From Desulfobacterales bacterium (GTDB lineage: Bacteria > Desulfobacterota > Desulfobulbia > Desulfobulbales > BM004): DNA of 37,395 nt. Position numbers and translations under genes: made by a program. Shown here one piece after another: positions 1,332 through 34,322 of this stretch. The stretch lies in assembly GCA_021647905.1 (NCBI GenBank), contig JAKITW010000019.1, forward strand, positions 1-37,395, in the 5' to 3' direction. Within the stretch, counting starts at the first letter, position 1. Every line of letters begins with the position of its first letter. The notes under the pieces were generated by a model. It saw only the letters and a program-made list of their open reading frames with translations. It did not search any database and was not told where the DNA came from.

Positions 1332-3305
1332 TCACCTGTCGCCGGCAGTGAGGGCGGCCAGCTGGTCGAGCCGTTCCCGCACGTTCGGAAAAAGGGAAAG
1401 GTCGGTATGGGGGAGGAAAAGTGAGGCCACGTACTGGTCCTTGAACCGGACCACCTCCGACAGTTCGAAGCTGGTCATCCGGCGCACCACCTCCACCACG
1501 TCCCTGCGGATATGGTTGCTCATCTCGCTCATCCAGGAGCCGAGCAGGGAGCCGTTGCCCACGTAGAGGATCCGCTCCGGCTCCACCTCGGGCAGCAATC
1601 CCACTGTAATGGCGCTGTCCAGGTCGATAAAACTGCCGAATGCGCCGGCCAGGATGATCTGTTCGATGTCGGTGAGCTGCAGCCCCACCTCTTCCACCAG
1701 GGTCTTGATCCCCGAGAAAATAGCGGCCTTGGCCCGGATGAAGTTGTCGATATCCACCTCGTTGATAACAATGTCGCGCTTAAGTCCCGTCTCGTCCGCC
1801 CAGGCCAGCACGTACTCGTAGCCGCTCTTTCCTGCCCGGATCCGCGGGGTGTCCAGGCTGCGGTTGAACTTGCCCCGGGGATCGATCACCCGGTATTCCA
1901 GCAGGCTGGCCACGATGACCAGCAGTCCGGAACCGCAGATGCCGAGGGGCGGCCGGTTGCCGATGGTGATGTTCATCGGTTCCAGGGTGCGCGGATTAAT
2001 GCTGAAGTCGCTGATCGCCCCGGCCGCGGCCCGCATTCCGTGGGTGATGCCGCCGCCCTCAAAGGCCGGCCCGGCCGAGCAGGCGGCGCAGACCAGCCAT
2101 TCCCGGTTACCGATAACGATCTCGGCATTGGTGCCGATGTCCACGTACAGGGTGAGCTTGTCGGTGCGATAGATGCCGGAGCCCATGATCCCGGCGACGA
2201 TATCGCCGCCCACATAGCTGGAGATGGACGGATAGAGCAGGGCCACCGCATGGTCGCCCAGGTTCAGGTTCAGGTCGGTGGCCCGGATCGGCGGGAAGAA
2301 GATGCTGGCCGGCACATAGGGGGCCCGCCGGATGTTGTCCGGCTCCAGTTCCAGGAGCAGATGGGTCATGGTGGTGTTGCCGGACAGGGTGATCGAGGTG
2401 ATCTCATCGGTGTCGATGCCGGTTTTCTTGAGCATTGTGGCGATGATCCCGTTGATGGTCTCTGCCACCAGGCCCTGCATCATTGCCAGGCCGCCGGGTT
2501 TTTCCGCCTGGATGATCCGGGAGATCACGTCCTCGCCGTAGCCGAGTTGGCCGTTGTAGTTGCTGCCGCTGGCCAGCACCTTGCCGGTCTGGATGTCAAG
2601 CAGGTTGCCGTACACCGTGGTGGTGCCGATATCAAAGGCCAGGCCGTAGCTGCGGTTCACCCAGTTGCCGGGCTGGATGTTGACCATCATGTTCTTGCCC
2701 TGTTCGTTCACCGGCCGGGCCAGGGTCACGGTCACCAGGAAGTCGCGCTGGCGCAGGCTGCGGCTGATCTTGCGCAGGGAGGCCAGGGTGATCACGATCC
2801 GCCGTTCGTCATACTGGTTCTTCAGCCCCTGGAGCAGGCGGCCGGCATCGGCCATGTTGTCGTTGGCCGCCGGCGGCGGCAACTCCAGGCACATCTTTTC
2901 CACCGGCGGGATAAAGACCCCCTCTCTTTTCAGCTCCCCGACGTTGAAGATCCGGATCCCGGCCCGGTGGCGGGGGGGCACCTCAACGGTGAGTCCGCCG
3001 GTTCCCAACGAGGACTCGGCCGGGATCCGGACGGTGAGATCGTTGTCGACCAGGGCCAGGCATGCCTGGCGGAAACCCCGGGCATAGTCCGCTTCGGTCA
3101 GTTTCTCGTTGCGGCCGCCGGTTACCTCGCCCTGTTCGAGGATCACCCGGCACTTGCCGCACAGGCCGCTGCCGCCGCAGGATGCGTTGATATGGATCCC
3201 GGCCTGCCGGGCCGCCTGGAGCAATGAAATCCCGGTCTCCACTTTCACCACCCGGCCCGAGGGCTCAAAGCGAATTGAGAATGTTTTTTTTGTCTCGTCG
3301 TTCAT
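1332..3305 (-). CDS. RACo-like 2Fe-2S ferredoxin / ASKHA ATPase (DUF4445)
   Basis: 657 residues. The N-terminal ferredoxin domain has a plant-type 2Fe-2S motif: C43, C49, C52 and C82. The large C-terminal domain has ASKHA features: FDIGTTTVYGNL, a second phosphate loop VDIGTNAEIVIGN, an ICGSGL motif and AGAFGSFIDLDSA. This is the architecture of RACo, the ATP-dependent reductive activator of corrinoid proteins, and of methyltransferase activators. The start is the ATG at 3305, which overlaps the upstream stop as ATGA; the open frame continues upstream but is out of phase with the neighbour's real coding sequence. It is the last gene of the formate dehydrogenase operon. No corrinoid protein or methyltransferase lies in the window, so its partner here is unknown; it may feed low-potential electrons into, or activate, a component of the dehydrogenase. 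Confidence 0.85.
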   Translation of the reverse strand: MNDETKKTFSIRFEPSGRVVKVETGISLLQAARQAGIHINASCGGSGLCGKCRVILEQGEVTGGRNEKLTEADYARGFRQACLALVDNDLTVRIPAESSLGTGGLTVEVPPRHRAGIRIFNVGELKREGVFIPPVEKMCLELPPPAANDNMADAGRLLQGLKNQYDERRIVITLASLRKISRSLRQRDFLVTVTLARPVNEQGKNMMVNIQPGNWVNRSYGLAFDIGTTTVYGNLLDIQTGKVLASGSNYNGQLGYGEDVISRIIQAEKPGGLAMMQGLVAETINGIIATMLKKTGIDTDEITSITLSGNTTMTHLLLELEPDNIRRAPYVPASIFFPPIRATDLNLNLGDHAVALLYPSISSYVGGDIVAGIMGSGIYRTDKLTLYVDIGTNAEIVIGNREWLVCAACSAGPAFEGGGITHGMRAAAGAISDFSINPRTLEPMNITIGNRPPLGICGSGLLVIVASLLEYRVIDPRGKFNRSLDTPRIRAGKSGYEYVLAWADETGLKRDIVINEVDIDNFIRAKAAIFSGIKTLVEEVGLQLTDIEQIILAGAFGSFIDLDSAITVGLLPEVEPERILYVGNGSLLGSWMSEMSNHIRRDVVEVVRRMTSFELSEVVRFKDQYVASLFLPHTDLSLFPNVRERLDQLAALTAGDR

Positions 3306-4156
3306 GGGTGCAGCTCCATCACGTCCAGCTCCAGCAACTGGGCCATGGTATATACCGGGCCGTCCACACAGACCAGTTGGCCGTCCATGTGGCAGTGGCC
3401 GCAGATCCCCAGACCGCACTTCATCTGCCGTTCCAGGGTGGTGATGATGTTTTTTTCCTTGAGCCCGATGCGGCTGAGCCGGGCCAGGACAAAGCGGATC
3501 ATCAGCGGCGGGCCGCAGACCAGGGCCACGGTGTTGGCCGGGGTGACCTCGATTGCATCGAGCAGGCCGGTAACCACCCCCACCGGGCCGTCCCAGCCCG
3601 GCCGGGTCTGGTCCACGGTCAGCAGACAGGTGGCCCTGGGGTGTTGCCGCCACAGGTCCAGGTCCCTTTTAAAGGCAATATCATCCGGGGTGCGGCTGCC
3701 GTAAAGAATGGTCAGCCGGCCATAGCTGTTGTCCTGGTCCAGGCAGTAATTGATCACCGAGCGCAACGGCGCCAGGCCGATGCCGCCGGCCACGAACAGC
3801 AGGTCCCGGCCAATGATTCTGTCCAGGGGAAAGGGGCGGCCGAACGGGCCGCGCAGGCCGACCATCGCCCCGGTCCCCAGTTGATGCATCGCATCGGTGA
3901 GTCTGCCGGCCCGGCGGACGCTCAGCTGGATGGTCCCCGGCCGGCTGGGGGTGGAAGAGAATGAGATCGGCGCCTCGCCGCAATGGGGGATCGAGACCAT
4001 CATGAACTGGCCCGGCCGGTAGGAAAAGGAGCGGTTCAACTCCTGGTCGGCAAAGCTAAGGACAAAGGTCTTGATCCGGGAGTTTTCCTCGATTACCTCG
4101 CTGATCCGGGCCGGCCGGGGCAGATAGCTGTTCTCAATGGTGTGGTTGATTGTCAT
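3302..4156 (-). CDS. FAD/NAD(P)-binding oxidoreductase subunit (HydG/AsrB-like)
   Basis: 284 residues of the ferredoxin-NADP reductase superfamily. The flavin-binding part has YRPGQFMMVSIP and the FAD motif SFSSTP; the nucleotide-binding part has FVAGGIGLAPLRS and a C-terminal CGPPLM. Near the end a 2Fe-2S cluster site reads CGLGICGHC followed by LVCVDGPV. The layout matches sulfhydrogenase gamma (HydG) and anaerobic sulfite reductase subunit B. Its expected role is to pass electrons between a pyridine nucleotide and the iron-sulfur subunit encoded just upstream. It starts 3 nt after that gene and overlaps the next by 4 nt, so it is translationally coupled on both sides. Confidence 0.88.
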   Translation of the reverse strand: MTINHTIENSYLPRPARISEVIEENSRIKTFVLSFADQELNRSFSYRPGQFMMVSIPHCGEAPISFSSTPSRPGTIQLSVRRAGRLTDAMHQLGTGAMVGLRGPFGRPFPLDRIIGRDLLFVAGGIGLAPLRSVINYCLDQDNSYGRLTILYGSRTPDDIAFKRDLDLWRQHPRATCLLTVDQTRPGWDGPVGVVTGLLDAIEVTPANTVALVCGPPLMIRFVLARLSRIGLKEKNIITTLERQMKCGLGICGHCHMDGQLVCVDGPVYTMAQLLELDVMELHP

Positions 4157-4159
4157 TTT

Positions 4160-5197
4160 CTATTCCTCGCAGACCATGGCGACAAAGCGGGCCATGTCCA
4201 CCCCGCCGAAGCAGATATCAATGCAACGGCCGCAGCCCACGCAACTCGGCCGGCCGTGTCTGGTCACGTCGTGCAGAAGTTTATGCCGGAACCGCCGGCG
4301 GATCGCCTGAGTCTGGTGGTCCACCGGATTATGGCCCCCGGCCATTCTGGTGAACCCGGCAAAGGTGCAGGCATCCCAGTTGCGGATCCGCAGTCCGGAG
4401 TCGGCGGTGACCGCCTGATCGCGGATGGTGAAGCAGGTACAGGTCGGACAGATATAGGTGCAGCCGCTGCAGTCCTGGCAGCGGCGGGAAAGCGCCTCCC
4501 AGATCGCGTCCGGAACCCGGTCCTCCCGCAGCCGGCGGATCGCCCGTTCCACCTGGACCTGGCGATGGAAATTGCCCCGGGCCTCCAGGGAGAGCTGGTA
4601 CTGTGCCTTTTTATCCTCCTCCCGGGCCGGGGTAAAGAAATGACCCAGCCGGGTAATCAGTTCCCGGCCCCTGATCCGGCCCACCTCGACAAAGTAGCGG
4701 TCGCCGAGGTCGGTGAACTGGAGATCATAGCCCATTTCGAGGAAGGGTCCGCTTTTGGTGGCGTTGCAGAAACAGTTGGCAAAGGGCTGGGTGCAGCCGA
4801 TGCTGATCAGGATCGCGTTTTCGCGGCGTTTCAGGTAATAGGGATCCTTGGCCTGGCCGAGAAAGGTCACGTCCATGTAGAGGATCGCCGCCAGATCGCA
4901 GGAGCGCAGCCCGAAATAGATGGTGTCCGCGGCCGAGTTGAGCGGGGTGAACCGGTAGTCGCCGGCCGCTGATATCTCATAGGTGAACAGGGTCTCCTGC
5001 TGGGGGAAGAGGTAGGGCTTGGCCGAGGCGATTGCCTGGTTTTCCAGATCAATGTCGACCTGGTCCAGTTCCTGGATCAGGGTGAACAGGGTGTCGCCCT
5101 GGCGGTTGCGGACCGGCGCCACCAGCCGGTGGTTTTTCTTCAGCCGCCGGAGCAGGGACGGCAGATGGTCTTTTCCGAGGATACAGGTTTCAAGCAT
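4160..5197 (-). CDS. 4Fe-4S electron-transfer subunit (HydB/AsrA-like)
   Basis: 345 residues. The C-terminal third has two cysteine clusters: C240, C243, C246, C250 (with further Cys at 253 and 255) and C319, C322, C325, C329, each fit for a 4Fe-4S centre. The N-terminal part has YFGLRSCDLAAI, typical of the sulfhydrogenase beta and AsrA family. Its expected role is to link the formate dehydrogenase catalytic subunit to the flavoprotein. It overlaps fdhA by 8 nt (ATGCTTGA) and ends 3 nt before the flavoprotein gene. The set resembles the beta-gamma electron-transfer module of soluble hydrogenases joined to a formate dehydrogenase. Confidence 0.88.
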   Translation of the reverse strand: MLETCILGKDHLPSLLRRLKKNHRLVAPVRNRQGDTLFTLIQELDQVDIDLENQAIASAKPYLFPQQETLFTYEISAAGDYRFTPLNSAADTIYFGLRSCDLAAILYMDVTFLGQAKDPYYLKRRENAILISIGCTQPFANCFCNATKSGPFLEMGYDLQFTDLGDRYFVEVGRIRGRELITRLGHFFTPAREEDKKAQYQLSLEARGNFHRQVQVERAIRRLREDRVPDAIWEALSRRCQDCSGCTYICPTCTCFTIRDQAVTADSGLRIRNWDACTFAGFTRMAGGHNPVDHQTQAIRRRFRHKLLHDVTRHGRPSCVGCGRCIDICFGGVDMARFVAMVCEE

Positions 5198-7220
5198 GGG
5201 TCACCTTTTCGATCCGGACCGCGCATATCTTGTATTCCGGGCATTGGGCCTTGGGATCCCGGGCATCCACGGTCAGAAAGTTAACCGGCGCCTCGGTAAA
5301 GTGGAAGCTGGTAAACAGCGCCCCTGGCACGACCCGGTCGGTTATCTCGGCCCGGAGCTCGATCTCCCCCCGGCGGGAGACCAGCCGCAGCCAATCGCCG
5401 TTGCCGATCTTGTGGCGGCCGGCGTCAACCGGGTTGATCTCCAGCCGGGCCCTGCCCCCCTCGCGGACCAGCATCGGGCTTTTCCTGGTCATGGTCCCGG
5501 TGTGAAAGTGGTGATAAAGGCGGCCGGTGTTCAAAACAAAGGGATAGTCCTGGTCCGGTCTTTCACTGGGCCGCTGGTGACGGGTGGGCACGAACCGGCC
5601 CCGGCCCCGGGTAAAGGCGTACTTGTGCAGATAGGGGGTGCCGGGATGGGAGCGGTCCGGGCAGGGCCACTGCAGGCCCCAGGAATCCTCCAGCCGGTTG
5701 TGATAGATCCCGCCGTAGATCGGGGTCAAGAGGGCGATCTCCTCCATGATCTCGGCTGCTGATTCATAGTCCATCTCATAGCCCAGGCAGCGGGACAGGC
5801 CGATGACGATCTCCGAGTCGGAGCGGCTGGAACCAAGGGGATCAATGGCCTGGCGAACCAGTTGCACCCGCCGTTCGGAACTGGTGATCGTGCCGGTTTT
5901 TTCGGCAAAGGAGGCAGCCGGAAAAACCACGTCGGCCAGGGTTGCGGTCTCGCTGAGAAAGAGATCGGAAACCGCCAGAAACTCCAGTTGCTCCAGCTTC
6001 TTTTTCACCTTGGCCAGGGTGGGGTCGCTCCGCATCGGATTCTCGCCCATGATCAGCATTGCGCGTACCTGGTCGCCATGGGTCATATCCAGCAGGGTCA
6101 GGCCCGGCCCGGCGGGCAGCTCGGTCTGCCAGGCCCGGGCGAATTTCGCCCGGACATCCGGATCGGCCACCGACTGGTAGCCGGGCAGGACCGCGGGCAG
6201 GGCGCCCATGTCGCAGGCCCCCTGGACATTGGAGTGGCCGCGCAGGGGATCGACCCCGGTATCCTCCTGCTCCACATGGCCGGTGAGCATGGCCAGGTTG
6301 GAGTAGGACTGGACATTGTCGGTGCCGCAGATATGCTGGGTCACTCCCAGGCAGTAGCAGATCACCGCCTTGCTCGCCCGGGCGTAAAGCTTGGCCGCCC
6401 GGGAGATCTCGTCCAAGGCCAGCCCGGTCAGGGACGCGGTCTCCTTCAGGTCGATTCGCAGGAGCATGTCGCGCAGGGCATGAAAGTTCTCGGCCCGCAT
6501 CTCGATGAACACGTCATCGATCATGTTTTCGTCAAGGATGATCCGCATCATCGCATTGACCAGCGGGATATCGGTGCCCGGCCGGATTGCCAGGTGGATA
6601 TCGGCATGCTCGGCCATGAAGGTGCGGCGGGGATCAATGACGATCAACCTGGCGCCCCGGTCCCTGGCATCCATGATCCTCCGGGCCACCTGGGGATGGG
6701 TCGCGGAGGTGTTGGAGCCCGAGACCAGGATCACCTGGCTGTTCTCGATCTCATTGATCGAGTTGGTCATCGCGCCGCTGCCAAAGGTGGTGGCCAGACC
6801 GGCCACCGTGGGCGCGTGTCAGAGCCGGGCGCAGTGGTCGACGTTGTTGGTCTTGAGCACTGCCCGGGCGAATTTCTGCAGCAGATAGTTTTCCTCGTTG
6901 GTGCATTTGGCCGAGGCCAACACCCCCAGGGCGCGGCCGCCGTGCCGGTCGCGGATCCGGGCAAACGCGGTTGCGGTCGCGGTCAGGGCCTGGTCCCAGG
7001 AGACCGGTGTCAGCTCGTTGTTTTTTCTGAGCAACGGGGTCTGCAGCCGGGCCGGGTCATGGATGAACTCGTGGATGTGCCAGCCCCGCACGCAGAGGTT
7101 GTTGCGGGTGACCGGGTGGCCGCGGCTGGGCATGACCCCGGTCACCCGGTTGTCAACGACCCGCAGGTACAGGCCGCAGCCGCAGCCGCAGTAACAGCAG
7201 GTAGTCAGTACATCCCGCAT
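5190..7220 (-). CDS. fdhA: Formate dehydrogenase catalytic subunit, selenocysteine-containing
   Basis: 676 residues when the UGA at 6821-6819 is read as selenocysteine 134. It belongs to the molybdopterin oxidoreductase family and oxidises formate or reduces CO2. The N-terminus has the 4Fe-4S motif CCYCGCGC (C8, C11, C15) with C43. The active-site segment reads HCARL-U-HAPTVAG, followed by GSGAMTNSINEIENS, matching the FdhF pattern around Sec140. A SECIS hairpin lies directly downstream. Later come LVSGSNTSATHP and a C-terminal molybdopterin-dinucleotide domain. No Tat signal is visible, so it is probably cytoplasmic. The start ATG has an AGGGGGG ribosome site 6 nt upstream. It heads a four-gene operon with HydB/HydG-like subunits, suggesting an NAD(P)-linked soluble enzyme. 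An automatic gene call would split it into two frames at the UGA. Confidence 0.95.
6789..6807 (-). promoter_or_regulatory. SECIS element of fdhA
   Basis: On the minus strand the sequence GGUGGCC-GGUCU-GGCCACC forms a 7-bp stem with a GGUCU loop. It begins 12 nt after the UGA, with the loop guanines at +19 and +20. This is the same position and loop sequence as in the well-studied E. coli fdhF element that SelB binds, so read-through at 6819-6821 is expected. Confidence 0.92.
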
Positions 7221-7447: not shown

Positions 7448-7526
7448 GGTTATTGGTTAGAGGTTAGCGGCAGTCCCCCATCCCTTTTTTTATCACCCAT
7501 AACCCATCACCTCTTACCCGTCATCT
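7448..7526. repeat. Two short heptamer arrays
   Basis: Positions 7448-7468 are three period-7 units (GGTTATT, GGTTAGA, GGTTAGC). Positions 7492-7526 are five (ATCACCC, ATAACCC, ATCACCT, CTTACCC, GTCATCT). The second array runs into the stop codon of the PPDK-like gene. They are members of the heptamer-repeat pattern seen across the window. Confidence 0.65.
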
Positions 7527-10500
7527 TATATCGGCAGGATATGCACCTCTTCGGTTATCGGATGATGGCCCTTGAGAAACAGTCCCTTGCGGCCGTCGAT
7601 GGATACCGGCTCACCGAAGCGGATGACCTGGCCGTTGATCTCGCAGTACTCGGCCGACTCGTATACCTTGAGGGTCTTGCAGCCCACCACGCAGGTCTTT
7701 TCCAGTTGGGTGGCAACCACCGAGGCATGGGAGGTCTGGCCGCCGCGGGCGGTGAGCAGGCCGTCGGCCGCGGCGATCTCCTTGATGTCCTCGGGCACCG
7801 TGTCCTGGCGGATGAGGATCAAGGGGGTGTCCGGGTCCTCCCGGCGCAGCTGGGCAAGGTTCTGGGCGGTGAACACGGCGCGGCCGGCCAGGGCGCTGCC
7901 CGAGACCCCGATGCCGGTGCCGAGCAGCGCGGTTGTCACTGCCTCGGGATTGACAAAGACATAGACGTTTTCTTTTTTCTTGATAGTAATCATGTCCCGG
8001 GTCTGGAGGATGGACAGGGCCTCGGCCCCGGGTCCCTCAAAGGTAAACTCGATCTCCTGGGGGTCCCACCGCTTGTCGTAGACCAGCTCCCGGGCCAGGG
8101 CCAGTAATGCCCGGTAGATTTCCGGGAACCGCACTTCAAGGGAAAAATCCTTGGACCGGCCGTCAAGCTCCGATTGTTCCACCGAGATGGGGTAGGTGGT
8201 GACCAGGCCGCTGACAATATCCTCGCCCTGGTCGCCCATGGCATAATCGCCCCACAACGCCACCCGCCGCACCTTGCGATAGGGATGGGCGGTGAACAGC
8301 AGGCCGCTGCCCGCGTCGGGGCCCAGATTGCCGAAGACCATCGCCTGGACGATGACCGCGGTGCCCCAGGCGTCGGAGGTGCCCATCAGCTCGCGGTAGT
8401 CCCTGGTTTTCTTGGTGTTCCATGAGTCAAGCACTGTTTCCACGGCCCCGATCAGTTGCAGCCAGGGGTCCTCGGGAATACCGATCCCCACGCTGCGGAT
8501 CGTCTTCTGGTACTCCAGGGCCAGTTCCCTCATCCGGGCCGGGGTGAACTGGCTTTTGAACTGGACATTATGCCTGGCCTTGGCCGCGTTCATCAGGTTC
8601 TGGAAGGTGTCCCGGCCCACGCCCTTGGTCATGGCCCAGGACTGGAGAAAACGGCGGTAGTTGTCCCAGGCCAGATACTCCTGGCCCGAGAGTCTGGCAA
8701 ACTCCTCGACCAGGTCCTGGTTCAGGCCGACATTGTGGACCGTGGCCATCATCCCGGGCATGGAGATGGGGGCGCCGCTCCGGATCGACAACAGCAGCGG
8801 ATTGGCCGGGTCGCCGTAGCAACGGCCGCTCTGCTCCTCCACCGCGCTCAGTTCCTTGCGTACCTGGCGCATGAACTCTTCGCGGGCCATCTGGAAACCG
8901 CGGACCACCGGCCAGCAGCGGAAGATCTCGGTGGTAACGATGAAACCCGGCGGCACCGGTTTGTTTTCCTCGGCCAGCACGGTGAGGTTGAAGCCCTTGT
9001 TGCCGAGTTGGATCAGGTTGTTGGTGCGGGGGTTCCGGTGGTGCAGGGAACTTACCGCCATCTCCGGGTTATAGGTCATCAACAGGTCAAGGTCCTTTTC
9101 GTCCAGCACCTCCTTCTGCCGTTCCAGGGTCTGGATGATCCGGGTGATGAAGTTGTCCAGGTGCTGGAGTCCGAAGGTGGAGGCGATCAGGTTGCGGAAA
9201 AAGGCCTCGGACAGCCGGAGGATGCTGGAGTTGATGTCAGTGTCGTCCCAGAGGGGGCGGTACTTGGTGAGCAGGTTGGCCGCGCCGATCTGGGGGATGA
9301 TGATCGACAGATTGTTCTGATGGATATTGGTGTAGTAGGCGTAGATTACATCCTTGACCCCCTCGGACAGGCCGCGGAAGATGTCCAGGTACTGGGTGTA
9401 GGAGAAACGCTTGATTCCCAGCGAGCTTGACAGCAGCTGGACCGATGTCTCCAGGCGGCGGCTGACAATGCCGTCGATCTTCAGGGCCCGCAGGTAGAGA
9501 CGGAGACACTTGATGACCCGGATAAAGGTCGCCCGGGTGATGAACGAGAGGTTGGCTGTTTCCGGCAGTTTTTCCAGGTAGATGTTGGCCAGGTTCTCCA
9601 GCCGGAAGGTAAGGCCCAGGGCATCGAACTTTTTTTCCCGGTACCGGCCGTACACCGAGGGGATGTCCACCGCGATATGGCGCTTGTAGTAGATGTCCTC
9701 CCTGGCCTCGAACACCTGGTCGCTCAGGATGATCCCTTTCAACTTTTCAAGGTGGCTGAGCAGGGCGTTCAGGCACTGGTGGGTGTCGCAGATTTCCAGA
9801 TCGGCCAGCAGCTGTTCCATCTCCGGGAAGCCGCCCTTGGCCGCCTGTTCCAGTTGAATCCGCAACTCCTGGAAACCGAGGTTGTACTTCTGGTGCAGGA
9901 GCTTGTACATCCTGACCAGTAGGTCGAACCGTTTTAGTTCCGTGCCGGGCAGGTCCTTCTGCTGGGCGAGGAAGGTGGCCCGCCGGGACTCGTCCCATCC
10001 GAGCAGATCCCCGATGGTTTCGATTTCATCCAGTTCCATGATTCTCTTCATCAGCCGGCGCAGGTCATCGACAAAGGGTCCGTGCCGGTCTACCTGGCCC
10101 AGCACCTCCTCCGGCAGAAAGGGGGCAAGCAGCTCCTTGTCGCCGCCCTGCCAGAAGGCGAAGATCGCCTCAATGAAGTCAACGATCAGGTTGCTGCTTT
10201 CCACATGGCTCTGTTTGCGGAGAAAGTGGATAAGCTGGTCCTGGCGTTTGTGGATCTCGTCCAGGTCAGTGGATACGTCCCGCAGTTCACCCTCGGCGCC
10301 GATCTCGTTGAAGAATACCGGCATCAGCTTGGCAAACTGCTTGAACAGGTTGTAGATCGGCTCAATGGGATGGTTGAGCAGCCGGCTGATATCCCGTTGG
10401 AACAGGTCGGTATCCTTGACGCAGGTGCCTGACAGCTTGAGGTTGATGATCAGGGCGGAGAACAGGGTGGAGCACCATTTCGGCTCCTGCACGATCAGGT

Positions 10501-11806
10501 TGGTCCAGACCCGGATGTTGGCCAGGTGGGCCGGGTTGGTGATCGGCTGCCAGTCCTCGTCCACCCCGGTAACATTGGCGTACTGGAAGCCGAAACGAAC
10601 CGACTCCCAGAGAAAGGCCTCCACCAGCCGGCTGTTGCCCCGGTTGAAGACCTCGGTGCCCAGGACCTGGATGCATTGCAGCGAGGTGTGCGGGTAACGG
10701 CGGACATTGACCTTGAGCAGCTGGAAGGTGGTGAGCAGAAAACTCTCGATCTCCTCAAAGCTCTGCTGCCGGATAAGCAGCACCAGGCTGCGGTTGATCT
10801 CCCGCAGGGTCTCTTCGTGGATCAGGGCCAGGCCCGAGGTCTCCATGATCCGGAAGAGGAAGAGGAGCTTGCGGTTCTCGGCAAAACGGTCGGCCGGCGC
10901 GGATCCGGTGGTTGCCGGCCCTTTGTTGCTTTCGCCGAGTTTGCCGGTGATCTCCTTGTAGAGCCGGACAAAATCAACGTGGGAGGGCATGGTCAGCAGC
11001 CGGCCCAGGGCCGCGGCCGGGTCCTTTTCCACCGCCACCTCCTGGAGGCGCTCCAGGTGGCCGCGGATCCGGCGGTGGGAGATGGCGTTGAAGAGCTTGC
11101 CCGCCTCCCAGCCCTCGCACATGGTGCCGCAGGCCTCCTCGAACCAGGCCATGGTATCTTTTTCACTCAACCAGTATTGGTAGTTCAGGGTCAGGACCCG
11201 CTGCATCAGCCGGGCCAGGGGAAGAAAGTCATAGGTTGTTGTGTCCGGCTGTTGTTTGGCAATTTCCAGGAGCCGGAAGGCAATGGCCTTCATCGGATGA
11301 TGACCCTGGACCATGAACATGAAGGTTTTCTCGTCCAGGCCGTGCAGCCGGACAAAGCAGCCGGCCAGGGCCTGTTCGTAACGGGCCAGGCCAGCCGGGT
11401 CGAGCAGGCCGGTCAGTTTGTCCACATAGGCCAGCAGCGCCTCCATGGTCTGGCCGAGCAGGGTGTTGTTCCGCTGTGATTCGGCCAGGGCGGTAAAGAA
11501 CAGGGCGGTGAAGCGGGTAAAGGCCTCCGGACCCCGTTGGTGGGGCAGATAATGGCTGATGTTCTTGAGGACAAAGGAGCGCAGCCTGGGGATGATGATC
11601 GTCCAGTTGCGGAAGGGGTGGCTGCTCTCGTAGAGCAACTCGTCGATACCCTTGCGGATTCCCCGGAACCGGCCCACTATTTCGGAAAGAACCCGAAAGC
11701 AAGGGTCGATGGTCACTTCCCTGGTGGCGGTTTCCTCAAGATTGACCCGCAGGGCATCGGATTCGATGACCTGGTCAGGGGTCGGTTTCTTTTCTGCCAT
11801 GGACAT
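7526..11806 (-). CDS. PPDK/PEP-synthase-like protein with a large N-terminal domain and no PEP-binding barrel
   Basis: 1426 residues. About residues 1-900 are a helix-rich region that I cannot assign. From about 930 there is a PPDK-type ATP-binding domain: LGNKGFNLTVLAEE, PPGFIVTTE, then LSIRSGAPISMPGMM. The mobile phosphohistidine domain ends the protein with GGQTSHASVVATQ, in which His1360 is the expected phosphoryl carrier. The protein stops about 65 residues later, so the PEP/pyruvate TIM barrel of true PPDK is missing. The acceptor is therefore unknown: it could be a separate subunit or a different substrate, as in water dikinases and rifampicin phosphotransferases. The next genes upstream are GAPDH and glycogen synthase, hinting at carbon-storage metabolism. 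The start could be the ATG at 11806 or at 11800; neither has a strong ribosome site. A heptamer array lies upstream. Confidence 0.8.
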   Translation of the reverse strand: MSMAEKKPTPDQVIESDALRVNLEETATREVTIDPCFRVLSEIVGRFRGIRKGIDELLYESSHPFRNWTIIIPRLRSFVLKNISHYLPHQRGPEAFTRFTALFFTALAESQRNNTLLGQTMEALLAYVDKLTGLLDPAGLARYEQALAGCFVRLHGLDEKTFMFMVQGHHPMKAIAFRLLEIAKQQPDTTTYDFLPLARLMQRVLTLNYQYWLSEKDTMAWFEEACGTMCEGWEAGKLFNAISHRRIRGHLERLQEVAVEKDPAAALGRLLTMPSHVDFVRLYKEITGKLGESNKGPATTGSAPADRFAENRKLLFLFRIMETSGLALIHEETLREINRSLVLLIRQQSFEEIESFLLTTFQLLKVNVRRYPHTSLQCIQVLGTEVFNRGNSRLVEAFLWESVRFGFQYANVTGVDEDWQPITNPAHLANIRVWTNLIVQEPKWCSTLFSALIINLKLSGTCVKDTDLFQRDISRLLNHPIEPIYNLFKQFAKLMPVFFNEIGAEGELRDVSTDLDEIHKRQDQLIHFLRKQSHVESSNLIVDFIEAIFAFWQGGDKELLAPFLPEEVLGQVDRHGPFVDDLRRLMKRIMELDEIETIGDLLGWDESRRATFLAQQKDLPGTELKRFDLLVRMYKLLHQKYNLGFQELRIQLEQAAKGGFPEMEQLLADLEICDTHQCLNALLSHLEKLKGIILSDQVFEAREDIYYKRHIAVDIPSVYGRYREKKFDALGLTFRLENLANIYLEKLPETANLSFITRATFIRVIKCLRLYLRALKIDGIVSRRLETSVQLLSSSLGIKRFSYTQYLDIFRGLSEGVKDVIYAYYTNIHQNNLSIIIPQIGAANLLTKYRPLWDDTDINSSILRLSEAFFRNLIASTFGLQHLDNFITRIIQTLERQKEVLDEKDLDLLMTYNPEMAVSSLHHRNPRTNNLIQLGNKGFNLTVLAEENKPVPPGFIVTTEIFRCWPVVRGFQMAREEFMRQVRKELSAVEEQSGRCYGDPANPLLLSIRSGAPISMPGMMATVHNVGLNQDLVEEFARLSGQEYLAWDNYRRFLQSWAMTKGVGRDTFQNLMNAAKARHNVQFKSQFTPARMRELALEYQKTIRSVGIGIPEDPWLQLIGAVETVLDSWNTKKTRDYRELMGTSDAWGTAVIVQAMVFGNLGPDAGSGLLFTAHPYRKVRRVALWGDYAMGDQGEDIVSGLVTTYPISVEQSELDGRSKDFSLEVRFPEIYRALLALARELVYDKRWDPQEIEFTFEGPGAEALSILQTRDMITIKKKENVYVFVNPEAVTTALLGTGIGVSGSALAGRAVFTAQNLAQLRREDPDTPLILIRQDTVPEDIKEIAAADGLLTARGGQTSHASVVATQLEKTCVVGCKTLKVYESAEYCEINGQVIRFGEPVSIDGRKGLFLKGHHPITEEVHILPI

Positions 11807-11883: not shown

Positions 11884-12888
11884 TTACAGCGCTTTGTTGG
11901 CCTCCATGTGCAGGATCAGGTCCAGGACCCGGTTGGAATAGCCCCATTCGTTGTCATACCAGGTGAGTACCTTGACCGTGGTGCCGACCACCTTGGTGGA
12001 CAGGCCGTCAACCACCGATGAGTGGGGGTTGCCCTGGTAGTCGATGGAGACCAGCGGTTCGTCGGAATAGCCGAGGTAGCGGTTGGTCGCCTCCTTGAGG
12101 GCCCGGTTGATCTCCGCCGGGGTGGTCTCCCGTTCCACCTCCATCACCGCGTCAACCAGCGAGACGTTGGGGGTGGGCACCCGGACCGAGAGCCCGTCGA
12201 ACTTGCCCTTCAGTTCCGGGATCACCAGGGCCAGGGCGGTGGCGGCCCCGGTTTTGGTGGGGATTATCGACAGGGCCGCGGCCCGGGCCCGGCGCGGATC
12301 GCTGTGGGCAAAATCAAGGATGCGCTGATCATTGGTATAGGAATGCACCGTGGTCATCAGTCCCCGCTTGATCCCGAACCGGTCGAGGATCACCCGGACC
12401 ATGGGCGCCAGGCAGTTGGTGGTGCAGGAGGCGTTGGAAACCACATGGTGTTCAGTGGGATCGTATTCGTCCTCGTTCACCCCCATGACAATGGTCTTGA
12501 TCTCGCCCCTGGCCGGCGCCGAGATCACCACCTTGGCGGCCCCGGCCTCGATATGGGCGTGGGCCTTGTCTTTTTCGGTGAACCGGCCGGTGGACTCGAT
12601 CACATAGTCCACCCCCAGATCACCCCAGGGGATGTCCCGCGGCTGCCGGTGGTTGAAGACTTCCACCCGGCGTCCGTTCACGGTGATGCCGCGTTCGTCC
12701 TCCCGGACCTGTTGCTGGAAGATGCCCATCACTGAATCATACTGGAGAAGATGGGCAATGCTTCGATTGTCGGTGAGATCGTTAATGGCCACGATTTCGA
12801 CATCGGCAAAGGCCGCATCCATGTCCTGGGCCCGGAAAATGCTTCTGCCGATCCTGCCGAACCCGTTGATTCCGACTCGAATTGTCAT
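11884..12888 (-). CDS. gap: Glyceraldehyde-3-phosphate dehydrogenase, type I
   Basis: 334 residues, full family length. It interconverts glyceraldehyde-3-phosphate and 1,3-bisphosphoglycerate in glycolysis and gluconeogenesis in the cytoplasm. The Rossmann motif is VGINGFGRIGRSIFRA, the catalytic cysteine is C155 in SNASCTTNC, and the C-terminus has WYDNEWGYSNRVLDL. An Asp in the AINDLTD segment suits NAD rather than NADP. The ATG has an AAGGAG ribosome site upstream. It follows glycogen synthase by 55 bp on the same strand, and the heptamer array that forms the end of that gene sits just upstream, so the two may be co-transcribed. A CTGAT-ACTA-ATCAG palindrome lies in the gap. Confidence 0.96.
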   Translation of the reverse strand: MTIRVGINGFGRIGRSIFRAQDMDAAFADVEIVAINDLTDNRSIAHLLQYDSVMGIFQQQVREDERGITVNGRRVEVFNHRQPRDIPWGDLGVDYVIESTGRFTEKDKAHAHIEAGAAKVVISAPARGEIKTIVMGVNEDEYDPTEHHVVSNASCTTNCLAPMVRVILDRFGIKRGLMTTVHSYTNDQRILDFAHSDPRRARAAALSIIPTKTGAATALALVIPELKGKFDGLSVRVPTPNVSLVDAVMEVERETTPAEINRALKEATNRYLGYSDEPLVSIDYQGNPHSSVVDGLSTKVVGTTVKVLTWYDNEWGYSNRVLDLILHMEANKAL

Positions 12889-12943: not shown

Positions 12944-14620
12944 TCAGTCTTCAGTCCTCTGTCCTCTGTCCTCTGTCCTCTGTCTTCCGTCTTCTGTCTT
13001 CCGTCTTCCGTCCTCTGTCTTCCGTCCTCCGTCCCCGGTCATTTCCACGGCGGTCCGGTACAACTCCAGGTAGCGGTTCCGCACCTTGGTCCAGGTGTAG
13101 TGGCGGTTGATCGTCCGGATCGCCGCGACCTGCATCCCGGCAAGTTTTGCCGGCTGCTCCCGGAAGAGGGTGAGGGCCCGTTCCATGGTCTCCAGCAGGG
13201 CCCGGGGCGAGTGTTCGCTATAGGCCAGGCCGGTGACCCCGTCAATCACCTTGACCAGGCCGCCGGTATGGCGGACAATGGGGAGGTTGCCGGCCAGTTG
13301 GGCCACATAATCGGTAAGGCCGCAGGGCTCATACCGGGAAGGGATAAGAAGGAAATCGCCGGCCGCATAGACCTGGTTGGCCAGGCCGGGGTCATAGCCG
13401 TGCAGAACACAGATCCGGTTGGCAGTGGCCGGGGCCAGGGCCAGCTGATCAAGGGCCAGCTCCAGTTCCCGGGCCCCGGAGCCCAGCAGCAGGACCTGAA
13501 AGTCTTTGTCCCGGCCAAGGAGTATCCTCAGGGCATCAATCAGGATGTCCACGCCCTTCTGGGAGGTCAAACGGCCGACCATGGTGAACAGGGGCTGAAG
13601 AGGGTCAACGGCCAGGCTCCCGACCTGGATCACCCCGCTGATTCGCCTGGCATTGATGTCGGCCAGTAACGCCTTCTTGCACAGCTTCTTGCCCTTTAAA
13701 TCGCCCCGGCCCGGGGCAAAGGCAGCGGCCAGCCCCAGTTTTTCCGGATGGCGGGGATCGAAATCCGCCGGGTTGATCCCGTTGGTGATTCCGGCCAGGA
13801 CGACCCCGTCCGCCAGCAGCCGCCGGCCCAGCCAGCCGGTGAGCATGTCGTCCTCGGTCTCCTGCAGTTCCCGGGCATAGTTCTCGCTTACCGTGTTCAG
13901 TACTGCGTAGCGTGAGGCAACGAGCAAGGGATCGAAACGGTCGGCCAGCAGATTATCCATTACCACCTGCTCGGGCAGACCGCAGATGGCCCGGGCAAAG
14001 GGCAGGTCTTCCACCTCCTGGTGGTAGCCGACCCCGGCATTGTGGATGGTGACCACGGCGCCGGTTCCGCGGAAATAGTGGCGGAACCCTTCCATCTCGT
14101 GCATCATCGCCGGCAGGATGGCGGTGTGGCCGTCCTGGCAATGGATCACCCCTGGTTTTTCGCCCAGCCGGACCATGAGCGCCAGCCCGCTCTTCTGCAG
14201 GAGTACGTTCATGGCGAAATAGTCGAAATAGGCAGTGCCCTGTTTGTGCCAGGGGATGGCCGCCTCTTCGTCGGCGGTATAGGTGTAGATTCCCCTTTTT
14301 TCCCGGTACCGTTCGCTGTCAACCAGAAAGATCCTGACCCGGTTCAGCTCTTGCTGGTGGATGGAGACCTCTTCCCGCCGCTCCTTGAGGGCGTAGTTCA
14401 TGTCCACCTGGAACCGGTCGGTTTCAATAAAGCCGAGGGCCTCGGGATCCATGAATCCATAACAGGGCAGGACCACCGATATCCTGCGCCGGGTCCGGGC
14501 CAGGGCCTCGGCCAGTTGCCGGCACACGTCCTTGACCCCGCCGGCGCCGGCCAGTCCGGCATACTCCCGGGTGACCAGCCAGATGTTATGTATTTTTTCG
14601 ATTTGTTTATTGGTAGCCAT
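12944..14620 (-). CDS. glgA: Glycogen/starch synthase (GT5)
   Basis: 558 residues. It transfers glucose from ADP- or UDP-glucose to a growing alpha-1,4-glucan. The N-terminal GT5 domain begins HNIWLVTREYAGLAGAGGVKDV and contains HCQDGHTAILP; the GT-B C-terminal domain has VGRLTSQKGVDIL and PSRYEPCGLTDY. The KTGGL motif that holds the substrate lysine reads G25-A-G-G-V here, so the usual lysine is missing, although K30 is close. The last ~30 residues repeat RKTEDGR-like heptapeptides because the coding sequence ends inside a 7-bp tandem DNA array. I chose the ATG at 14620, 14 nt after aroC; longer frames overlap aroC. It probably forms an operon with aroC. Confidence 0.85.
   Translation of the reverse strand: MATNKQIEKIHNIWLVTREYAGLAGAGGVKDVCRQLAEALARTRRRISVVLPCYGFMDPEALGFIETDRFQVDMNYALKERREEVSIHQQELNRVRIFLVDSERYREKRGIYTYTADEEAAIPWHKQGTAYFDYFAMNVLLQKSGLALMVRLGEKPGVIHCQDGHTAILPAMMHEMEGFRHYFRGTGAVVTIHNAGVGYHQEVEDLPFARAICGLPEQVVMDNLLADRFDPLLVASRYAVLNTVSENYARELQETEDDMLTGWLGRRLLADGVVLAGITNGINPADFDPRHPEKLGLAAAFAPGRGDLKGKKLCKKALLADINARRISGVIQVGSLAVDPLQPLFTMVGRLTSQKGVDILIDALRILLGRDKDFQVLLLGSGARELELALDQLALAPATANRICVLHGYDPGLANQVYAAGDFLLIPSRYEPCGLTDYVAQLAGNLPIVRHTGGLVKVIDGVTGLAYSEHSPRALLETMERALTLFREQPAKLAGMQVAAIRTINRHYTWTKVRNRYLELYRTAVEMTGDGGRKTEDGRRKTEDGRQRTEDRGQRTED
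12945..13035. repeat. Heptamer tandem array, 13 units, inside the 3' end of glgA
   Basis: Units follow the pattern (C/T)(T/C/A)GTC(C/T)T, for example CTGTCCT and CCGTCTT, repeated 13 times in perfect 7-bp register. The reverse complement is the AGAGGAC/GGAAGAC type found at 34324-34386, 28984-29018 and 30595-30615. The glgA stop codon TGA is formed by the array edge (12944-12946). Confidence 0.9.
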
Positions 14621-14634
14621 GAAAAAACCGCTTT

Positions 14635-15687
14635 TCAGGAGATGGCCCGCTGACGGAGCAGGTGGTCGGCCAGGGTCAGGCAGACCATGGCCTCGCACAC
14701 CGGCACGATCCTGGGGATGGCCGAGATGTCGTGCCGGCCGCCGACCCGGATGGTGACCGGATTGTTGTCCAGGTCAACGGTCTGCTGTTCCCGGCCGATG
14801 GACGGGATCGGCTTGACCGCCACCCGGGCGATGATCGGATCGCTGTTGGAGATCCCGGCCAGGATGCCGCCGGCCCGGTTGGAGGCAAATCCCTGCGGAG
14901 TGATCGGGTCGTTGTTCGTGGAGCCGGTGAGCCGGGCCGCCTCGAAACCGGCGCCGATCTCCACCCCCTTGACCGCGCCGATGGACATCAGCCCGTGGGC
15001 CAGGGTGGCGTCCAGCTTGTCGAATACCGGGTCACCCAGCCCGGCCGGGCAGCCGGAAGCCTGGATTTCGACGATTCCGCCCAGGGAGTCGTTGTCGGCG
15101 CGCACAGCATTGATATGCTCCTCCATCCGCGCCGCTGCCTCGTTGTCCGGGCAGAAGAGCCGGTTGTCATTGATCCGGTCGAGGTCGCGCCGGCTGGTTT
15201 CGATCTTGCCCAGGGCCACGGTATAGGCCAGCACCGAGATCCCGGCCGTGGCCAGGAGGGTCCGGGCCACGCTGCCGGCCGCCACCCGGGCCGCGGTTTC
15301 CCGGGCCGAGGCCCGGCCGCCGCCGCGGTGGTCGCGGATTCCGTATTTTTTGAGATAGGTGATGTCCCCGTGGCCGGGCCGGAATATTTTTTCTAAGTGA
15401 TCGTATGACTTGCTGTGGGCGTCCTTGTTATGGATGAGCAGCGCAATCGGGGTGCCGGTGGTCATCCCCTCGAACACCCCGGAGAGGATCTCCACCCGGT
15501 CCGGTTCCTGGCGCGGGCTCTCGCCGCCGCCCTTGCCGGGCCGCCGCCGGTCCATGTCTTTCCGGATACCGGCCGGGTCCAGGGGCAGACCCGGCGGGCA
15601 GCCGTCGATTACCGCGCCCACCGCAGTGCCGTGGGACTCGCCCCAGGTGGTGACCCGGAAAACCTTGCCATAGGTGTTGCCTGCCAT
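14635..15687 (-). CDS. aroC: Chorismate synthase
   Basis: 350 residues. It converts 5-enolpyruvylshikimate-3-phosphate to chorismate with reduced FMN, the last step of the shikimate pathway. Signatures are TTWGESHGTAVGAVIDGCPPG near the N-terminus, RRRPGKGGGESPRQEPD and YGIRDHRGGGRASARETAAR. The chosen ATG at 15687 has a GGAAGGA ribosome site 8-9 nt upstream and gives the conserved MAGNTYGKVFRVT start; an upstream in-frame ATG would add 19 unconserved residues. A strong promoter lies 70-100 nt upstream. glgA follows after 14 bp. Confidence 0.97.
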   Translation of the reverse strand: MAGNTYGKVFRVTTWGESHGTAVGAVIDGCPPGLPLDPAGIRKDMDRRRPGKGGGESPRQEPDRVEILSGVFEGMTTGTPIALLIHNKDAHSKSYDHLEKIFRPGHGDITYLKKYGIRDHRGGGRASARETAARVAAGSVARTLLATAGISVLAYTVALGKIETSRRDLDRINDNRLFCPDNEAAARMEEHINAVRADNDSLGGIVEIQASGCPAGLGDPVFDKLDATLAHGLMSIGAVKGVEIGAGFEAARLTGSTNNDPITPQGFASNRAGGILAGISNSDPIIARVAVKPIPSIGREQQTVDLDNNPVTIRVGGRHDISAIPRIVPVCEAMVCLTLADHLLRQRAIS

Positions 15688-15755
15688 GTTCCGTTCCTTC
15701 CGAGGCCGGTAGCCGGTTAAAATAACTTTCTTTTTCCCATCCAATATCTGGCCGC

Positions 15756-32870: not shown

Positions 32871-34322
32871 ATGAGACGGTTATCAATGGCAGGGGTATTG
32901 TTGGTGTTTCTGGTCGCTCTGTTTCAGCCGGTTGACGGCCGGTCCCAGGACCGGGAGCTGGTGAGTACCCTGGCGGACCAGACCGGGGTGAGCGTGACCA
33001 TTTACAACGACAACCTGGCCCTGATCAAGGATGTGCGGCAGCTTGTCCTGCCGCAGGGAACAAGCAGCCTGGCCTTCCGCGAGGTGAGCGGTCAACTGCG
33101 GCCGGAAACGGCCCTGATGCGGAGTATCAGTCATCCATCCGCCCTGACCGTGCGGGAACAGAACTTTGATTTTGATCTCCTGACCCCGCAGAAGCTGCTC
33201 GAAAAGTATGTGGGCCGCGAGGTGACCCTGGTGCGGACCAATCCCACCACTGGTGAAGAAACAATGCGCCGGGCCCGGGTGTTGAGCGCCAATAACGGGG
33301 TGGTGCTCAGGATCGGCGAGCATATCGAGACCGGGATTCCGGGACGGCTGGTTTTTCCGGACGTGCCGGACAACCTCCGGGACCGGCCCACCCTGGTGAT
33401 GACAGTGGACTCCCGGACCGGGGCCGAGCAGACCGTTGAGCTGAGCTATCTTACCGGCGGCCTCGGCTGGCAGGCCGATTACGTGGCCGCCCTGGCCCGG
33501 GATGAGACCCGGCTCGACATCAACGGCTGGGTCACGCTTACCAATACCAGCGGCACCTCGTTTCCCAATGCCCGGCTGCAGTTGATGGCCGGCGATGTGA
33601 ACCAGGTGCGGCCGGAGGAGATGTCCCGTTACGAGATCATGATGCTCGACAAGGCCGCGGCCGCGGCCGCGCCGGCAATGGCCGAGGAAAGCCTGTTCGA
33701 GTATCATCTCTATACCCTGCCGCACCCGACCACCATCCGCGAGAACCAGACCAAGCAGGTCGCCCTGCTCCAGGCCGGCGGCGTGGTCTGTGACAAGGAG
33801 TACCTGCTCCAGGGCCAGGAGTACTATTACCAGAATCGCGTACCTGACAGCGATTCCAAACTCAAGGTCGGGGTATATCTCCAATTCCGCAACCGCCGGG
33901 CCGATAATCTCGGCCTGCCCCTGCCCAAGGGGATTGTGCGGGTATACAAAGAGGACGGCCAGGGCCATATCCAGTTCGTGGGCGAGGACCGTATCGATCA
34001 CACCCCGGAGAACGAGACGGTGCGGCTTAAGCTGGGTGATGCCTTTGACCTGACCGCGGAGCGGAAACAGACCGAGTTCAGGAAACTTGCCGGTTTTACT
34101 CGCTATGACCATGTTCTTGAGAGTGCCTATGCAATCAAGCTCAAGAACGCCAAAAAAGAGGCCGTGGTTGTCAAGGTGCTGGAATCCCTGCCCGGCGATT
34201 GGACAATACTCTCTGAGAGTCATGCCCACACCAGGGAGTCGGCCTTTCAGGCGGCCTGGCAGGTTCCGGTGCCGGCCAAGGGCGAGGCGACCCTTACCTA
34301 TCGGGTCCGGGTCCGGTACTAA
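32871..34322 (+). CDS. Secreted DUF4139 domain protein
   Basis: 483 residues. An N-terminal signal peptide (MRRLSMAGVLLVFLVALFQP...) points to export. The body is of the DUF4139 family: VTIYNDNLALIKDVRQL near the N-terminus, YLTGGLGWQADYVA in the middle, and a beta-rich C-terminus with SLPGDWTILSES. The function of the family is unknown; members are beta-sandwich proteins of the cell envelope. An AAGGAG site lies 7 nt before the ATG. It has its own promoter; mutS follows after a heptamer array. Confidence 0.88.
   Translation: MRRLSMAGVLLVFLVALFQPVDGRSQDRELVSTLADQTGVSVTIYNDNLALIKDVRQLVLPQGTSSLAFREVSGQLRPETALMRSISHPSALTVREQNFDFDLLTPQKLLEKYVGREVTLVRTNPTTGEETMRRARVLSANNGVVLRIGEHIETGIPGRLVFPDVPDNLRDRPTLVMTVDSRTGAEQTVELSYLTGGLGWQADYVAALARDETRLDINGWVTLTNTSGTSFPNARLQLMAGDVNQVRPEEMSRYEIMMLDKAAAAAAPAMAEESLFEYHLYTLPHPTTIRENQTKQVALLQAGGVVCDKEYLLQGQEYYYQNRVPDSDSKLKVGVYLQFRNRRADNLGLPLPKGIVRVYKEDGQGHIQFVGEDRIDHTPENETVRLKLGDAFDLTAERKQTEFRKLAGFTRYDHVLESAYAIKLKNAKKEAVVVKVLESLPGDWTILSESHAHTRESAFQAAWQVPVPAKGEATLTYRVRVRY

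Follow-up and report, generated by a model that had tools for sequence, protein, structure and literature searches.

Domain architecture of a PPDK-like protein

The window analysed here is a stretch of 37,395 nucleotides from a Desulfobacterales bacterium (assembly GCA_021647905.1, contig JAKITW010000019.1, positions 1 to 37,395). Its minus strand encodes, at 7526..11806, a protein of 1,426 residues resembling pyruvate phosphate dikinase (PPDK), here called P0001, in an open frame that begins with ATG. Homologues were found in 94 of 96 relatives, most of them from the same order, and because these matches are mostly full length, at 61-80% identity, P0001 is neither a chance open reading frame nor an assembly fusion. 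The chain has three parts, all on the minus strand. Residues 1-928 (9023..11806) are an all-helical N-terminal region in an AlphaFold model, which we propose as an acceptor or partner domain. They are followed by a PPDK-type ATP-grasp domain at residues 929-1290 (7937..9022), assigned from Pfam, phmmer, superposition and conserved residues, and by a swivelling phosphohistidine (His) domain at residues 1291-1415 (7562..7936), assigned from PF00391 and superposition; both boundaries are approximate. The predicted phosphohistidine, H1360, lies in the motif RGGQTSHA, its codon at 7727..7729.

Pfam finds two domains in P0001, PPDK_N (residues 974-1215, E 1.7e-25) and, at residues 1328-1408, the PEP-utilizers mobile domain (E 6e-17); at E-values up to 1 nothing else was detected, including the phosphoenolpyruvate (PEP)/pyruvate barrel, PEP-utilizers_C (PF02896). 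The NCBIfam models of PPDK and PEP synthase match far below their cut-offs, with the best stretches in the last 500 residues, and phmmer aligns residues 929-1415 to residues 15-509 of PPDK 1kbl (E 6.8e-78). An AlphaFold model of residues 230-1426, built from a 38-row alignment, has a mean predicted local distance difference test (pLDDT) of 85.2 and a predicted template modelling score (pTM) of 0.71. Its residues 915-1426 superpose on residues 2-520 of 1kbl with Z 40.2 and a root mean square deviation (rmsd) of 2.4 Å over 481 residues; rifampin phosphotransferase (RPH) and a PEP synthase reach Z 23.3 and 20.1 in the same search. By this superposition the chain stops at about PPDK residue 520, and the preliminary description was correct in finding no PEP/pyruvate barrel within it. 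That P0001 combines PPDK-type ATP and His domains with a large helical N-terminal region, and has no such barrel, is virtually certain.

The model lies closer to 1kbl and 1dik (Z 40.2 and 39.6) than to 2r82 (Z 28.9), which is titled as a second conformational state. In 1dik the His domain faces the PEP side and in 2r82 the nucleotide side, so that the predicted pose would be acceptor-facing, although the predictor was surely trained on 1dik or 1kbl. At six positions, K937, R1009, E1253, Q1268, R1270 and H1360, all 117 homologues share the same residue; these positions match the functional residues K22, R92, E323, Q335, R337 and H455 of PPDK. The position matching PPDK D321 is Glu in 115 of the 117. 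Invariance at the catalytic positions indicates that the machinery for phosphorylating H1360 is under strong selection, and it is highly likely, judging from these residues, that ATP phosphorylates H1360. The preliminary description, which had called the ATP-binding domain and the phosphohistidine intact and had named H1360, is borne out by this invariance and by the fold match to 1kbl.

A barrel supplied by a separate gene was also looked for. The genome of origin (2.73 Mb in 118 contigs, 98.4% complete) has a single PF02896 match, which sits inside an 896-residue frame on another contig (C32); to our reading of its motifs, this full-length protein is a PEP synthase. No free-standing PEP/pyruvate barrel was found in the PF02896 search of this genome, and since its only match belongs to a separate full-length protein, no split partner for P0001 was found. 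PPDK_N has four matches there: P0001, the C32 protein, and one each on contigs C24 and C35. The latter two proteins are about 908 and 991 residues long (loci L189 and L190), and neither contig has a PF02896 match.

As the preliminary description had noted, the N-terminal region is very large and unassigned: residues 1-928 have no sequence match in Pfam, NCBIfam or the Protein Data Bank (PDB). An AlphaFold model of residues 16-915 (30-row alignment, mean pLDDT 81.8, pTM 0.64) consists of helices plus two short strands only, at 702-708 and 717-723. A PEP-binding domain had been considered for this region; nothing barrel-like is present, and given that the model is all-helical, no barrel is hidden in residues 1-928. 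The structure prediction that had been proposed thus yielded a helical model, but no PDB fold match beyond chance. A Foldseek search of residues 16-915 against the PDB returned nothing at E-values up to 0.001, with the model beyond residue 627 scarcely covered, and VIA-align returned mostly solenoids and helical repeats, with Z up to 10.3 at an rmsd of 17 Å, which is chance level for helical models.

Conservation within the region is uneven. Across the 117 sequences, residues 1-310 are only loosely conserved (mean 0.39). The most conserved block, residues 401-550 (10157..10606, minus strand), has a mean of 0.79 with 30 of 150 positions invariant, and a second block, residues 701-760 (9527..9706, minus strand), also has a mean of 0.79, with 16 of 60 invariant. 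Both exceed the ATP domain in mean conservation (0.62, 65 of 362 invariant); the His domain stands at 0.66 (22 of 125 invariant). Invariant charged residues in the first block are D465, D467, K489, E505, R509, D516, E517, R521, R530, K531, H534 and E536, and in the second K708, R709, H710, E724, K726, R735 and E737, along with S717, Y719 and Y722. The second block forms a hairpin whose tip has low confidence in both AlphaFold models. Blocks that are both charged and invariant fit the expectation for a binding or catalytic site, and we read them as a putative site of this kind rather than a spacer.

Distribution and association with a divergent GAPDH

A profile of the N-terminal region (A1) has a match in 128 of 394 Desulfobacterota genomes. 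The matching frames are about 1,400 residues long, except at contig ends or in split genes, and in none of these 394 genomes did the profile match an N-terminal domain standing alone. A GTDB-wide scan used short P0001 peptides, which reach close relatives only; the best 80 of 114 relatives carry titles mostly of Desulfobulbaceae and kin or of Deltaproteobacteria, including Desulfobulbus, Desulfocapsa and Electrothrix (cable-bacterium records). One Methyloceanibacter bin among them (L046) we take to be contamination. A plasmid search gave no match to P0001.

Gene neighbourhoods were compared in a near set, 80 loci of close relatives, and a distant set, 40 loci from distant families. In 30 of the 40 distant loci, a gene for a divergent glyceraldehyde-3-phosphate dehydrogenase (GAPDH) of about 420 residues, gap2, lies 26-372 bp downstream on the same strand, and in two more it adjoins the P0001 homologue on the opposite strand; some of the remaining eight are cut by contig ends. 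None of the 80 near loci has an adjacent gap2. In the genome of origin gap2 is on another contig (G000:C12:10726-11940), ahead of pgk and tpi. A canonical GAPDH gene, gapA, is found within 500 bp upstream of the P0001 homologue in 17 of the 40 distant loci and in 31 of the 80 near ones. The most extended clusters have the order rpoN-hpf-ptsN-rapZ-EIIA-rimI-gapA-P-gap2-pgk-tpi-secG, where P is the P0001 homologue; for all genes but gapA, exemplars were named by visual inspection and the names were then carried over to similar sequences.

The association extends beyond adjacency. A Gap2 profile, applied at an E-value cut-off of 1e-90 (two gapA proteins in a small test set reach only 1.8e-53 and 3.1e-56), matches 128 of the 394 genomes, and this set is identical to the set of P0001 carriers, including genomes where the two genes are unlinked. 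Read by eye, at least six families are mixed for carriage (f16, f21, f22, f44, f60 and f65), two of them even within a genus; as both genes are present or absent together in these mixed groups, the pair changes state together. The counts cover one phylum, Desulfobacterota, and show linkage, mechanism being a separate matter; a Fisher test on them takes no account of ancestry, and its value is not to be read as a probability. On this sequence evidence, we consider it very likely that P0001 is functionally paired with Gap2. The preliminary description had drawn on a nearby GAPDH and glycogen synthase for context; the GAPDH link holds, in the far stronger form of 128 genomes shared with Gap2, whereas the glycogen synthase link is lineage-specific.

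Gap2 scores 333.8 bits against the NCBIfam type I GAPDH model, below the cut-off of 367.2. All 28 Gap2 proteins compared retain the Cys and His of the GAPDH active site, and in two closed genomes (G119 and G154) Gap2 is the sole match to the GAPDH C-terminal domain; for these reasons Gap2 is probably an active GAPDH. Position 44 is Arg in all 28, where gapA has Asn, and the position next to it is Asp in 20 of 20 gapA but in only 4 of 28 Gap2, changes that hint at an altered cofactor preference. A further position, H356 (L149 numbering), is His in 28 of 28 Gap2 and 0 of 20 gapA. Two genomes have additional copies. G455 has two P0001-type loci (L176 and L177), with gap2 following L177 only, and the L177 protein is the more divergent copy. 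G181 (locus L180) carries the gap2-pgk pair twice, at 505-508 kb and at 1,777-1,780 kb; the two copies score identically, and one is linked to the PPDK-like gene.

In the window itself, P0001 ends a same-strand run aroC-glgA-gapA-P0001, in which aroC comes first. The gapA gene (11884..12888, minus strand), 77 bp upstream of the P0001 start, encodes a canonical type I GAPDH, matched by Pfam and above the cut-off of NCBIfam TIGR01534. A glgA-like glycogen/starch synthase gene (12944..14698, minus strand; Pfam, with NCBIfam below the TIGR02095 cut-off) is a neighbour mainly in this lineage. It is overlapped by aroC, for chorismate synthase (14635..15744, minus strand), whose start is uncertain and whose assignment comes from Pfam, NCBIfam and neighbourhood comparison. 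Elsewhere, the minus strand at 5190-7220 encodes the alpha subunit of a formate dehydrogenase. A TGA codon lies in frame at 6819-6821, before HAPT, and divides the gene in two in the list of open reading frames; we take this to be the usual FdhA selenocysteine site. Beside this gene, at 1332-5197 (minus strand), are genes for an AcsV-like corrinoid activation protein and for an FAD/NAD reductase subunit together with a 4Fe-4S subunit of the sulfhydrogenase/AsrAB type; the group suggests an electron-transfer module of the Wood-Ljungdahl pathway. A DUF4139 protein is encoded at 32871-34322 (plus strand), adjoining mutS. An Rfam scan of the window at gathering thresholds gave no match.

A possible phosphotransfer to a small molecule and its rivals

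Our leading proposal, a tentative one, is that P0001 may be a PPDK-derived dikinase partnered with Gap2, with a small-molecule acceptor at the node of 3-phosphoglycerate (3PG) and 1,3-bisphosphoglycerate (1,3-BPG); we hold the whole chain of steps with the same reserve. The ATP-grasp domain would use ATP and inorganic phosphate (Pi) to phosphorylate H1360, with release of AMP and pyrophosphate (PPi) as in PPDK, as the invariant catalytic positions suggest. The His domain would then leave the ATP site and swing over to the helical domain, where the phosphoryl group would pass from H1360 to an acceptor held there. The first-choice acceptor is 3PG, which would become 1,3-BPG, and Gap2 would then reduce 1,3-BPG to glyceraldehyde 3-phosphate; in the reverse direction, ATP could be regained from AMP and PPi. 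In its most specific form, possible though doubtful, this is a two-protein system across the GAPDH and phosphoglycerate kinase (PGK) step: a 3PG dikinase (ATP + Pi + 3PG <-> 1,3-BPG + AMP + PPi) with a new helical acceptor domain and its own GAPDH. A small-molecule acceptor is supported by the acceptor-swapped dikinases RPH, HpeHI, CreHI and PpsAB, which act on small molecules.

Several observations weigh against this proposal. Of the 128 carriers, 78 were examined for PGK and all 78 have it; viability therefore does not call for a second route to 1,3-BPG. HEAT-like helical folds often bind proteins, and such a fold, matched here only at chance level, would favour regulation. Shared ancestry inflates the co-occurrence of P0001 and Gap2. 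Mirror-tree comparisons, made on those of the 40 distant loci with all three genes found, do not single out Gap2: P0001 correlates with gapA at r 0.90 and with Gap2 at r 0.81 over 12 loci, and with pgk at r 0.88 and Gap2 at r 0.85 over 11 loci. The simpler idea that P0001 stands in for a missing PGK was rejected on the same PGK count. As a separate observation, a divergent PGK of about 440-485 residues, with half the usual score, is the only PGK match in G124, G249 and G287 and a second copy in G160, G168 and G394.

Many carriers have aprA, a marker of dissimilatory sulfur metabolism (95 of 128, versus 77 of 266 non-carriers), an association that is a tendency and not a rule. The idea that P0001 serves solely to recycle the AMP and PPi produced by sulfate activation was rejected, as 33 of the 128 carriers have no aprA match. 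If the 3PG dikinase proposal is true, the forward reaction would push gluconeogenesis in autotrophic anaerobes, and the reverse would recover ATP from the AMP and PPi that sulfate activation produces. If the pairing with Gap2 is functional, the GAPDH step in about one-third of the sampled Desulfobacterota genomes would involve an additional, undescribed protein, P0001, which would spend or regain two ATP phosphate bonds there, and the dikinase superfamily would gain a new acceptor domain. We use 'undescribed' on the strength of our literature search, which found no description of the P0001 family or of its pairing with a GAPDH; the available part of one review (PMC8100219) has nothing on such PPDK variants.

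The rival that survives best is a regulatory histidine kinase like VadK, in which H1360 would autophosphorylate, the solenoid would bind Gap2, and Gap2 would be controlled by phosphorylation or by phosphorylation-dependent binding. Its precedent is VadK itself, described as having only the PPDK ATP and His domains, autophosphorylating, and interacting with enzymes of the methylcitrate cycle (PMC12636432). The perfect co-occurrence of P0001 with Gap2, the solenoid-like helical domain of the model and the Gap2-specific H356, a candidate phosphosite, all fit such a regulator. Most known dikinases of the superfamily, however, act on small molecules, and the invariant charged blocks are dense for a pure docking surface; we regard this reading as possible, but on the doubtful side. 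It and the 3PG dikinase proposal make opposite predictions, with phosphate going to Gap2 in the one and to a metabolite in the other.

Alternatively, P0001 could be a dikinase for a small acceptor other than 3PG in triose-phosphate metabolism, with Gap2 acting in the same pathway. The glycolytic character of the conserved neighbourhood and the wide variation of acceptor domains across the superfamily agree with this. It is nevertheless unlikely: since two closed genomes have no GAPDH match other than Gap2, Gap2 probably is a genuine GAPDH, and the link would be to the GAPDH step itself.

The preliminary description had suggested a role in carbon storage, perhaps like that of plant glucan water dikinases (GWDs), and we find a glucan dikinase or carbon-storage enzyme very improbable. 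It has in its favour the glgA in the window and the presence of that gene no more than 4.5 kb upstream in 33 of the 80 near loci, but the same is seen in only 1 of 40 distant loci. Pfam, at E-values up to 1, finds no carbohydrate- or starch-binding domain in P0001. A milder argument is that four of the 78 carriers tested have no Glyco_transf_5 match; presence in the other 74 is uninformative, several of the matches being weak. GWDs have starch-binding domains, a His domain before the ATP domain and an extra N-terminal region. P0001 resembles them in its phosphohistidine and ATP domains and in its extra N-terminal region, and differs in that neither the starch-binding domains nor the His-before-ATP order is seen.

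Least credible of all is an ATP-fed substitute for enzyme I (EI) of the phosphotransferase system (PTS), phosphorylating HPr or EIIA: although the gene lies within the rpoN-hpf-ptsN-rapZ-EIIA cluster in several lineages, the genome of origin is without EI, and 26 of 33 EI-less genomes carry a P0001 homologue (nine of these 26 being counted because the match list does not contain them), 102 carriers retain EI, and a PTS relay was rejected since HPr and EIIA-Man were each found in 1 of the 26 EI-less carriers, EIIA-Ntr (PF00359) not having been searched. EI was found in 361 of the 394 genomes, thirteen of the other 33 being counted by absence from the match list. The HPr-binding N-terminal domain of EI (PF05524) is absent from P0001 and from the genome of origin, in which HPr was not found either.

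Comparison with known dikinases

P0001 is PPDK-type rather than PEP-synthase-type: it shares with PPDK (EC 2.7.9.1) the ATP-grasp and His domains, at 33-35% identity to 1kbl, and differs in having a 900-residue N-terminal helical domain in place of a PEP/pyruvate barrel. Its closest counterpart in domain content is VadK (Rv1127c) of Mycobacterium tuberculosis, a truncated PPDK reported to autophosphorylate on His (PMC12636432). In both, the ATP and His domains of PPDK occur without a barrel, the genome has no free-standing barrel to partner them, and there are ties to metabolic enzymes. VadK, at about 50 kDa, has no added domain, whereas P0001 has about 900 extra residues, and the reported VadK partners are methylcitrate-cycle enzymes, whereas P0001 is linked to gap2, by co-occurrence and adjacency.

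RPH is a dikinase whose second-substrate domain is not a PEP barrel and whose His domain swivels, according to its description (PMC4844700), and P0001 is alike in both respects. RPH rows align with the P0001 model over the ATP and His domains. The two differ in order, since the RPH His domain is C-terminal, after the RIF domain, whereas P0001 runs helical, ATP, His; the RIF domain also has alpha/beta and helical subdomains, and the RPH products are AMP and Pi. HpeHI, CreHI and PpsAB are two-component dikinases for phenolic substrates (PMC12167813). Like P0001, they appear to put ATP-grasp and swivel domains, akin to those of PEP synthase and PPDK, to use on new acceptors. Unlike P0001, they are split into two chains, one of which carries the acceptor and His domains together, and have an ATP-grasp motif nearer PEP synthase than PPDK.

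A member of the family has probably been published under another name. In Dissulfurimicrobium hydrothermale, LGS26_08520 is listed as a phosphoenolpyruvate synthase, with PGK (08510) and GAPDH (08515 and 08525) around it, in a genome description that infers gluconeogenic operation of the pathway from the inability of the strain to ferment glucose (PMC8780430). This order, PGK-GAPDH-PEP synthase-GAPDH, is the same as at locus L180, and LGS26_08520 probably belongs to the P0001 family. Under its published name it would make PEP, an activity that is unlikely given the domains of the family, and metabolic models relying on this annotation would be in error. The dikinase superfamily has gained other acceptor domains several times, and P0001 is a further variant, in which PPDK-type ATP and His domains stand behind a large helical domain and are tied to a GAPDH.

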